Part shown: positions 16,237-19,294 of the stretch, piece after piece
Layout: each line of letters opens with the position of its first letter
How positions within the stretch are numbered: position 1 is the first letter of the stretch
Program-made: the position numbers and the translations under genes
NCBI GenBank assembly: GCA_021604525.1
Contig: BQJD01000006.1
Location: forward strand, 62,001-126,000
Source of the DNA: a marine bacterium B5-7
GTDB lineage: Bacteria; Pseudomonadota; Gammaproteobacteria; Arenicellales; CAJQKF01
Length of the DNA stretch: 64,000 nucleotides
Direction: 5' to 3'
The notes under the pieces: generated by a model
The model's database searches: none
Told to the model about the DNA's origin: nothing
What the model saw: the letters and a program-made list of their open reading frames with translations, nothing else

Positions 16237-18474
16237 ATGCGAAATATATTTAAGCGTAAACAAGATAAAAAGTTGCATCTGTGCATCATTTGTGGACGTG
16301 ACAATAGATATAACTACATTCGTCATACAGTCGAATATGCTTTACCTGTCTTCGACACCATCCATATCATGGATACAGGCAGTACCGATAGAACACATGA
16401 ATTATCGTCGATATCACCAGATATAAATTATTTTGGCTGGGACCGGTGGGAGTATGGTTGGGGTGACGCTTATGATCGTGTCCGTCAGGATGTGCCAAAA
16501 GGGGACTGGTTTTTGTATCTGGATTCGGACGAGATGCCATCAAAATACCTGTTGGATCATATTTCAGATTCCGTGTCCAGGATCGATTCCGAGGGTTATG
16601 GTCAAGCACGTATCCCGAACGTGCTTCATATGGATGGCATCAGGACAGGCGATCCGGCTGATCGCTTGCCGCGTACCCCCGAGGAATTTAAACAAAAGCA
16701 TTGCTGGACGAAATCCATAATTTGCAAGAACGGACCTTGGCTGCAAGTTAGAAATAACGGTATGCATGCCGGCTATCATAATGTTGAACAGGCGTGTATT
16801 TTTTTGCCACTGTATTACTGTCATCACAAGTACACATCACAAGTACACGCCTCGATTTCCATTTGTTCGTTTCTACTTCCTGAATCCTACAGCATTCCCG
16901 TGGATCGTGAAGAAAACCGTGCGTTACGAAGACTGGCTGAACGATTTAAGATAAGTAATACGAACCATCTGGTTGATTTGCTGCAGAATAATCCACCTAA
17001 AGAGTTTATTGAGGTGATCCAGGGTTGGCGGGAAAGCGATCTTGGCACATGCCGACATTGGTATGACTGGTACAAACAGGATTTTGCCGTTGGCGACCAT
17101 GCATTACGTTTGTGTGATGAAGAATGCTGTAGCTATGAATACAGTCGTTACTCTTGTGTCGAGCTTAAGGCAGGTTCTATACCCCGATTGATGGATGATT
17201 GGAAATTGAAGTCTGACAACGGTCACTACTTCTTCAGATCTGATAAAAAGTCACAAACCATGGAGTGTAATGAAACGGCCGCTGCGATAATGGCGTTAGT
17301 CGACGGTGAACGAAGTATCGCTGACATTGTTTATAACTTCTCTGACTCCTTTGCCGACTCATTAGACAAGATAGGCGATGATACAAAAAGTGTTGTGCGT
17401 GATTTGTCCCGTCAAGGTGTTATTGCGGTTCAGACACCGGAGTCGGCAATTAACCCAGCTGTGGCAACAGAGATAAACCGGGCGGTTGCCAATGAGCTCA
17501 AGTACTGGCACGAACAAGGTGGATGGGATATCACAAATCTGCGTAACGAGACCAAAAGACGAAACTTGATCGAGGTTACATTCAACAACGGCCAAGTAGC
17601 CATCAACTGGAACGGTAGTGAATCTGGTCGCTGCAAAAATTTACAAGCATACTTTCAGCAAATAGCAATGGATGCGTCAGATATGGCAGTAACCTTTGCA
17701 TTAAATCCGCATGATTCGGTTCATGGAAATTCAGACTTCCCGGTACTGGGGTTTTCCAGACGTAGCAGAGGTCAGGAAACAGCAGTGTTGATTCCAGATA
17801 TTTACTTTATAAATGGCTATTCAACACTCCGAATGCGTGTCAGGGAAGCTGCGACTCGCATTCGCTGGCAAGACAAAATAGACTCGGCAATCTGGCGTGG
17901 ATCCCCAACAGGCCGTGCAAACAATGCAGAAAATTGGCAAGAAAATCTCCGGGTTCGCCTATGTCTTTATGCCCGCGAGAATCCTGAATGCATCGATGCG
18001 AAGTTAACTTCGTTTGCACAGTCTACTGTTGAGGCAAGTCAGTTGATGCAACATGCAAACATTAATGGTGATCGTGTGCCGGAACATAAACAAATGTTCT
18101 TTAAATATATATTGAATGTCGATGGAAACAGTTCGTCATGGGGTGGGACTTTTTGGAAGCTGCTTTCGAATTCTGTGATGGTGCATATCCTCGACGATCG
18201 CAGAGATTCGAATCCACAACACGACACATACGGCCTTATGCGATACAGCCAGTGGTATCACCATTGGCTTGAAAAAGATAAGCATTATCTGAGTTGCAAG
18301 GTACAGGATCTAGTCAGCACGCTTCAGTGGGCAAAGGAACATCAGTCAGAGTGCGAGACTATTGCGAAAGAGGCAACGGTGTTTGTCAATCAGTATTTGA
18401 CAGACGAAACTGGCAGAGCTTATTGCGCCGAATTGTTTCGTGCCATGACATCAATAAATTCGGGCAGGGTTTAA
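16237..18474 (+). CDS. Three-domain glycosyltransferase: GT2-like, PqqD-like, GT90/CAP10-like
   Basis: 745 residues. Residues 12-210 look like a GT-A domain: LCIICGRDNRYNYIRHTVEY, DTGSTDRT at 46-53 and the DxD-type YLDSDEM at 95-100. About residues 307-397 resemble a PqqD domain (a small winged-helix peptide-binding module): SIPRLMDDWKLK, ECNETAAAIMALVDGERS, VRDLSRQGVI. Residues about 470-735 match the CAP10/GT90 pattern: DKIDSAIWRGSPTG, PEHKQMFFKYILNVDGNSSS and HILDDRRDS. No membrane helix is visible, so it is probably cytoplasmic. It is more A+T rich than its pca neighbours and stands alone on its strand, suggesting transfer. A role in glycosylating a surface polymer or a peptide is inference. 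Confidence 0.75.
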   Translation: MRNIFKRKQDKKLHLCIICGRDNRYNYIRHTVEYALPVFDTIHIMDTGSTDRTHELSSISPDINYFGWDRWEYGWGDAYDRVRQDVPKGDWFLYLDSDEMPSKYLLDHISDSVSRIDSEGYGQARIPNVLHMDGIRTGDPADRLPRTPEEFKQKHCWTKSIICKNGPWLQVRNNGMHAGYHNVEQACIFLPLYYCHHKYTSQVHASISICSFLLPESYSIPVDREENRALRRLAERFKISNTNHLVDLLQNNPPKEFIEVIQGWRESDLGTCRHWYDWYKQDFAVGDHALRLCDEECCSYEYSRYSCVELKAGSIPRLMDDWKLKSDNGHYFFRSDKKSQTMECNETAAAIMALVDGERSIADIVYNFSDSFADSLDKIGDDTKSVVRDLSRQGVIAVQTPESAINPAVATEINRAVANELKYWHEQGGWDITNLRNETKRRNLIEVTFNNGQVAINWNGSESGRCKNLQAYFQQIAMDASDMAVTFALNPHDSVHGNSDFPVLGFSRRSRGQETAVLIPDIYFINGYSTLRMRVREAATRIRWQDKIDSAIWRGSPTGRANNAENWQENLRVRLCLYARENPECIDAKLTSFAQSTVEASQLMQHANINGDRVPEHKQMFFKYILNVDGNSSSWGGTFWKLLSNSVMVHILDDRRDSNPQHDTYGLMRYSQWYHHWLEKDKHYLSCKVQDLVSTLQWAKEHQSECETIAKEATVFVNQYLTDETGRAYCAELFRAMTSINSGRV

Positions 18475-18568: not shown

Positions 18569-19270
18569 TTATCGCTTATTGTGAGTCCCTATCTTCATCA
18601 TCTGATTTCCACCGCGCTGAAACTCGTAATCGACGGTCACTATGTCAACTTCAAGGTTTTTCCTTTGCAGGGTTTCAATAATTCGTTGCAGATGTTCCGA
18701 TTCAACACCATCGAGGTCGAGCAACGGAAATATCCTGACCTCATTTGCTACCCTGCATAGCTCATGAACGGCTGCCAGGTGGAAGTCGAACGTCAGGTGG
18801 TGGCTATACAAAAACAGCAGATGCGAACATAACGCCAGGCTGAATTGTTGCTTGACAAACGGTAACTCGGGCAATGCCGCGTTGAGATAACGTCCGCACT
18901 CAAGTCCATTATTGAAATCCTTCAGGAACAGATTCATCGCACGCATTCGTTTGCTTTCGAGTTCATCTACAGATTTAATGCTGTTCCATACGAAATCGTT
19001 TGCATGATTGCGAACCTGAATCATGATGCCATCGCGAACGTCTTGTATGCGTCGTTCTATTCCGCGAGCGCTGAACTGATATAGCGGATCGATGGATATG
19101 ACCTTGCCGTCGCGCATGGTCAATTCGGCATTGAAGCTTGCCGGCCCGTCGCCGCAGCCGAGGATGGAACTGGCAAGATCGGATTCATCGAGCGCGAACA
19201 TCGCCCGGTATTCATCGAGATCGCGACCCCATGGAATGATATCGGCGAGACGGATAACGCGCTTGCTCAT
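18569..19270 (-). CDS. SAM-dependent methyltransferase-like protein of unknown substrate
   Basis: 233 residues from ATG 19270; a TTG at 19294 directly after the racemase stop is the alternative start. ILGCGDGPASFNAEL resembles the SAM-binding motif I, and a carboxylate strand follows at VISIDPLYQF. The middle has SLALCSHLLFLYSHH and then EVRIFPLLDLDG, as in class I methyltransferase cores, though the order is loose. The protein is cytoplasmic and has no signal peptide. It lies 24 bases downstream of the racemase gene and is probably co-transcribed. It ends about 95 bases from the convergent glycosyltransferase gene. Confidence 0.65.
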   Translation of the reverse strand: MSKRVIRLADIIPWGRDLDEYRAMFALDESDLASSILGCGDGPASFNAELTMRDGKVISIDPLYQFSARGIERRIQDVRDGIMIQVRNHANDFVWNSIKSVDELESKRMRAMNLFLKDFNNGLECGRYLNAALPELPFVKQQFSLALCSHLLFLYSHHLTFDFHLAAVHELCRVANEVRIFPLLDLDGVESEHLQRIIETLQRKNLEVDIVTVDYEFQRGGNQMMKIGTHNKR

Positions 19271-19294
19271 TGCAGTTGTACGATCAACACTCAA

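Follow-up and report, generated by a model that had tools for sequence, protein, structure and literature searches.

The window analyzed here is a stretch of 64,000 nucleotides from the genome of the marine bacterium B5-7, which belongs to the order Arenicellales. Located at positions 16237 to 18474 of its forward strand is a single, intact reading frame of 745 codons that opens with ATG and carries the sequence GGAG ~10 bases 5' of the start. The gene is A+T-rich, as had been stated in the earlier note on this DNA, with a GC content of 0.45 versus 0.53. The encoded protein begins with ATGCGAAATATA, and no hydrophobic segment was seen when the chain was inspected for one. Lying downstream on the opposite strand (18569-19294) is a gene for a 241-residue protein, the matches of which to methyltransferases all fall below threshold, and then a gene for an Asp/Glu racemase. 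No link between either of these and the finding described below is visible.

Domain architecture of the window protein

The polypeptide chain contains an N-terminal GT2-like (GT-A) domain, a PqqD-like RRE domain, and a C-terminal GT90 domain. This arrangement, which the earlier note had proposed, is borne out by Pfam profiles, sequence matches to PDB entries, and AlphaFold2 modeling, with the GT2 match falling just short of its cut-off. The core of the N-terminal domain extends from residues 13 to 108 (16273..16560, forward strand). The Glyco_tranf_2_4 profile (PF13704) aligns with residues 24-100 at 25.8 bits, just below the cut-off of 27.5, and in a phmmer search against the PDB residues 15-102 match GmaR with an E-value of 0.0019. 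The DSD motif formed by residues 96-98 (16522..16530, forward strand), as positioned by the GmaR alignment, is a candidate DxD metal/nucleotide-sugar site.

The C-terminal domain, at residues 519-735 (17791..18441, forward strand), is by its profile score a member of the GT90 (CAP10/POGLUT-like) family. Indeed, Glyco_transf_90 (PF05686) matches these residues with 55.7 bits against a cut-off of 24, the alignment spanning profile positions 123-317 of 396. Other GT90 chains (the relatives L057 and L023) are similar from near residue 465 onward, and the limits of ~465-735 thus differ slightly from the 470-735 suggested earlier. Residues 521-738 match Protein O-glucosyltransferase 2 (PDB code 9w47) at 1.6e-7, and the WRG motif at residues 553-555 (17893..17901, forward strand) aligns with the WRG of that enzyme. 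Both W553 and G559 are invariant in the GT90 alignment. Members of the GT90 family are best known as protein O-glucosyl- or xylosyltransferases and as fungal capsule enzymes. The window protein has the catalytic family and the WRG stretch in common with POGLUT and fungal CAP10, but it is bacterial, cytosolic as judged from its sequence, and linked in one chain with an RRE and a GT2-like domain.

The PqqD-like domain, a candidate leader-binding module, extends from residues ~315 to 400 (17179..17436, forward strand), close to the 307-397 originally given. PF05402 matches residues 339-396 with 28.0 bits, above the cut-off of 23.4, and the excised region scores 31.3 bits; by this measure the middle domain belongs to the family. 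An AlphaFold2 model of residues 307-404, calculated with 42 relatives, displays a winged-helix RRE fold with a pLDDT of 91.0 and a pTM of 0.77. The best Foldseek matches to this model in the PDB were TbiB1 with a leader peptide (5v1v/5v1u), a lasso B1 protein with its leader (6jx3), and PqqD (5sxy), with a probability of 1.00 for 5v1v, 6jx3, and 5sxy. For the full-length chain, modeled from an alignment of only five rows, the pLDDT was 44.

According to the earlier note, its proposal would fail if the middle region lacked a PqqD fold or if that fold belonged to the GT90 domain. Neither is the case, because the fold is confidently predicted and its best structural matches are RREs and PqqD. Assignment of the PqqD region to the GT90 domain is ruled out, as it folds alone and occurs with many other enzymes. 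A GT90 protein from a genome of the same genus (L058) carries no PqqD domain. As judged from the model, this is a genuine PqqD module that folds separately and lies outside of the GT90 domain. A role for the chain in PQQ biosynthesis or in an HPr-rel-A system is likewise ruled out: the score against the PQQ-biosynthesis PqqD equivalog TIGR03859 is 26.0 bits against a cut-off of 46, and no match of the protein to TIGR04353 (HPr-rel-A PqqD) was reported.

PqqD-linked enzymes in the source and related genomes

A search of the genome contigs with the whole window protein revealed no relatives. A search of the source genome (4.41 Mb in 119 contigs) with PF05402, however, yielded 11 domains, at least seven of which share a chain with other enzyme sequence or adjoin it (GT2, GT4, GT7-like, GT10, GT32, and GT90). 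In addition to the window protein, Pfam delineates a GT10-PqqD-PqqD-GT4 chain of 871 residues, an ankyrin-PhyH-GT7C-PqqD chain of 755 residues, a GT2-PqqD chain of 352 residues, and a GT32-PqqD chain of 319 residues. Two further PqqD chains are neighbors, one of 409 residues in which only PqqD is recognized and one of 849 residues with a Glyco_trans_1_2 domain. Found in related genomes are PqqD-sulfotransferase-GT90 (732 residues), PqqD-GT11-PqqD-GT90 (1115 residues), GT32-PqqD-GT2-GT25, PS_pyruv_trans-PqqD, PIG-L-PqqD, sulfotransferase-PqqD, GT10-PqqD, and 2OG-Fe(II) oxygenase-PqqD. The PqqD domains occur at varied positions in these chains, singly or doubled, and on unrelated enzyme folds. 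PqqD is what these chains have in common, and their catalytic parts belong to unrelated families; a docking tag shared by a set of tools would look like this.

Two GT2_4-PqqD chains from other genomes were compared with the window chain by BLASTP. The alignment with one (L103) covers the PqqD part only, and no significant alignment was obtained with the other (L093). Since the PqqD part was at most aligned, the window chain and the GT2_4-PqqD chains appear to be separate or very diverged fusions.

Fusions of RREs to glycosyltransferases, including those of the PF00535 family, have been noted since 2020, first by RRE-Finder (PMC7470986, 2020) and then by structure-based RRE mining (PMC12710340, 2025). 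The main text of neither report describes a substrate family, GT90, or a genome-wide repertoire, and such fusions have apparently been reported without any family of substrates.

Several of these loci deserve brief description. Contig C52 of genome G000 (L029 1-10000, L054 1-13689) contains a glycosylation island with two PqqD-fused chains, several GT4/GT2 chains, an asparagine-synthase-like gene, a radical SAM gene, and a 1090-residue GT2-GT25 chain, together with a protein that carries the leader described below and has a Thr/Pro-rich stretch near the far end. On the same contig is a 108-residue PqqD-like fragment (L054 12906-13232), probably a decayed or truncated gene, which resembles the start of the 1115-residue PqqD-GT11 chain of G003. 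The ankyrin-PhyH dioxygenase-GT7C-PqqD chains (L053 7884-10151, L104 371-4251) unite parts for hydroxylation and for glycosylation in a single tagged protein, and in G002 such a chain adjoins a sulfotransferase-PqqD chain.

A shared Tat-type leader and its association with PqqD

The earlier note had suggested a look at small ORFs near homologs. Small proteins near PqqD loci do indeed possess a common leader, and a query with one of them recovered 20 places in the source genome. The ~20 proteins, which are dispersed, display an N-terminal Tat-type RR motif followed by WxxPxxxxVxLPAHA and, after the predicted cleavage site, QT[S/T]. The consensus is xxxxRRKLLKxLxxGGGxAxxxxxLPxxWxKPVVESVxLPAHAQTTx, in which the W, P, L-P, and H-A positions are invariant over 19 rows; an example of the segment is LPEQWAKPVVESIVLPAHAQTT. 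Neither WxxP nor PAHA was found in ~20 further Tat signals encoded by the genome, and these elements are therefore not a general Tat feature. The RRE groups that include PqqD, FusE, McjB, and StsC are reported to bind a W/Y/LxxP/L/I recognition sequence (PMC12710340), a form that the WxxP of the leader fits at the level of sequence.

The mature parts of the leader proteins are mostly unrelated by eye and range from <10 to ~330 residues, with a median of 156. They are rich in Ser and Thr (20.6% versus 11.6% for the window proteins) and poor in Lys and Arg (3.6% versus 10.2%), and some are Thr/Pro-rich. In all of 88 leaders, the spacing between the W and the final A of AHA is 15, the search expression having permitted spacings of 12-17. 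Immediately following AHA are Q (85 of 88), T (77 of 88), and, at +3, S or T in every case (46 T and 42 S), with little conservation beyond. The same holds for loci fetched with a pattern ending at Q+1, all 56 of which have S (32) or T (24) at +3. An exchange between Ser and Thr with nothing else tolerated is as expected of an O-linked acceptor. From this pattern the residue at +3 is tentatively suggested as the glycan acceptor, at somewhat less than even odds; alternatively, it could belong to the cleavage or binding site. The open-access literature yielded no paper that describes these leaders or connects them with PqqD enzymes.

The link between leader and enzymes is statistical. Among the matches listed for 109 genomes of the order, 39 genomes contain the leader and 51 contain PF05402, and all 39 lie within the 51 (hypergeometric probability 3e-19, a statistic that ignores kinship). 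Counted by genus, again among the matches listed, the 13 leader-positive genera fall within the 18 PqqD-positive genera of 31, for which C(18,13)/C(31,13) is ~4e-5. Enzyme-fused PqqD domains, defined as those in open frames of at least 250 residues, were found at a distance of up to 5 kb from a leader gene nine times among the matches listed versus 0.77 expected (Poisson probability 1e-7, assuming uniform placement and ignoring kinship). All nine lie outside of the genome in which the leader was first noticed, and approximately eight are independent because G020 and G060 have one arrangement in common. For free PqqD proteins the corresponding numbers among the matches listed are three versus 1.0, which is not significant. 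About half of the leader-positive genomes show, among the matches listed, free PqqD proteins only; these could belong to an HprK-related system instead.

The leader is rare beyond the order, occurring in three additional genomes of those sampled from the class. In two of these, from two families, a PqqD gene lies within ~1 kb of a leader gene; in the third, the assembly of which is 81% complete, no PqqD was found. In the closest pair (L234 2012-3588), a leader protein terminating in a long poly-Thr tract is encoded 108 bases downstream of a GT2-PqqD gene, whose PqqD match is slightly under the Pfam cut-off. When named GTDB genomes were scanned, 56 leader loci emerged from metagenome assemblies of Gammaproteobacteria, including Arenicellales; the flanks retrieved for six of these contain a PqqD domain, in each case within 5 kb.

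Can these data be explained without contact between leader and PqqD? The leader might be an N-terminal sorting or processing signal, similar to PEP-CTERM, that is read by the export machinery. The PqqD enzymes would then produce a surface glycan, their genes would reside in the same cell-surface islands, and PqqD would bind another partner. The leader genes are mostly solitary, with no PqqD gene nearby, islands rich in ordinary glycosyltransferases house certain PqqD genes, and a processing signal would be expected to be conserved at its cleavage site. That WxxP matches the published recognition pattern (PMC12710340) and is missing from the other Tat signals, however, argues against this explanation, as does adjacency that is significant for enzyme-fused but not for free PqqD and that narrows to 108 bases. 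We thus consider it unlikely.

Two loci with free PqqD genes can be mentioned here. In L028 (6100-9738), a span of less than 4 kb holds a free PqqD gene, a sulfotransferase gene, and a leader protein; TPR proteins and an NRPS-like region are located close by. In the source genome, a separate cluster (L027 8489-10918, also L006 and L007) resembles the HPr-rel-A systems (TIGR04352/TIGR04353) in that it contains a free PqqD, an HprK-related kinase A, and a third gene, all below the NCBIfam cut-offs. The third gene is nucleotidyltransferase-like by eye and unmatched in NCBIfam. Possibly this cluster employs the WxxP leader or another one.

A proposed scheme for leader-guided glycosylation

On the basis of fold and motif, the PqqD domain of the window enzyme would act as an RRE and, in the cytosol, grip the WxxP leader of proteins whose genes lie elsewhere in the genome. 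As suggested by the domain families, the held substrate would be offered to the GT2-like and GT90 sites for the transfer of sugars onto Ser or Thr, with the acceptor being the residue at +3 past the predicted cleavage site (AHA/Q-T-[S/T]), the Ser/Thr-rich stretches beyond, or both. Other PqqD-tagged enzymes might extend, trim, fucosylate, sulfate, pyruvylate, or deacetylate the glycan. The RR motif and the AxA site suggest that the protein would subsequently be exported by Tat and that signal peptidase would remove the leader along with the signal peptide.

We assign a probability of roughly 0.6 to the window gene being part of such a toolkit, in which RREs would guide enzymes dispersed over the genome to the glycosylation of leader-tagged, Tat-type proteins. 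As no leader gene lies nearby, the proposed place of the gene in this scheme rests on its domain build; the general link between leader and PqqD is held with somewhat greater confidence. The fuller statement, namely that a shared Tat-type leader recruits dispersed RRE-tagged enzymes that build glycans, perhaps at the +3 residue, on many unrelated proteins prior to export, has about an even chance of being correct. The earlier note had raised the possibility of a two-step glycosylation enzyme directed by a peptide or protein held on it; such guidance has gained strong indirect support, and the picture was right in direction but too narrow. Its description of the gene as isolated and without a precursor is accurate locally but not genome-wide, given the PqqD-fused glycan enzymes and the ~20 leader proteins, all of which are dispersed.

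In terms of fold, PF05402 membership, and a candidate W/YxxP-type partner, the window domain is like PqqD, the lasso B1 proteins (TbiB1, FusE), and McjB. It differs from RiPP RREs in that it is fused to glycosyltransferases and that the candidate substrates are mostly whole Tat-type proteins encoded elsewhere rather than a small, clustered precursor. The window gene could nevertheless belong to a conventional RiPP pathway, in which PqqD would bind a short, unannotated precursor and the product would be a small, glycosylated natural product. PqqD domains do function in this manner in RiPPs, and certain leader proteins have mature parts of only 7-50 residues. No precursor, peptidase, or transporter was seen beside the window gene, however, most of the leader proteins have long mature parts, and the enzymes are dispersed rather than clustered, all of which makes such a pathway improbable. 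The window chain does not belong to a local RiPP cluster, as no precursor gene lies beside it; at other loci leader genes do adjoin PqqD-fused genes. The substrates are probably mostly whole exported proteins, from tens to ~300 residues, and not classic small RiPPs. That the protein is an ordinary surface-polysaccharide glycosyltransferase, with the winged helix only a structural or dimerisation module, is likewise improbable: GT2, GT4, GT10, GT11, and GT25 enzymes are common in surface polysaccharide synthesis and family names are silent on a protein acceptor, but the RRE-type domain recurs with many unrelated folds, at varied positions, and in step with the leader family, and GT90 is best known from enzymes of the kind noted above.

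Returning to leader-guided glycosylation, precedents exist for several of its features. PEP-CTERM provides an example of many dispersed exported proteins with one short signal, and PglL-type systems represent bacterial O-glycosylation of exported proteins. Here, by contrast, an N-terminal leader would be read by a soluble RRE, and tailoring would proceed stepwise in the cytosol rather than by bulk transfer in the periplasm. In the DUF2063-RRE systems with DUF2282 precursors, the substrates likewise bear an export signal, but it is of the Sec type and has no recognition motif (PMC12710340), whereas the leader described here is of the Tat type, with an RR motif and WxxP.

If the scheme is correct, bacteria would select whole exported proteins for glycosylation by RiPP-style leader recognition, and the enzymes and their substrates would be encoded at scattered sites of the genome. 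This would be an undescribed bacterial way of choosing proteins to glycosylate, and it would provide a short, portable tag for steering many glycosyltransferase families to a chosen protein. The near-invariant W and P, their fixed spacing, and the invariant Ser/Thr at +3 make the system directly testable.

A second type of leader was also observed. Tat-type proteins in L236 (2850-3065) and L243 (354-800) carry YTPPA, which also conforms to YxxP, and are encoded on contigs with PqqD-fused genes. By its sequence, YTPPA may define a parallel leader class.
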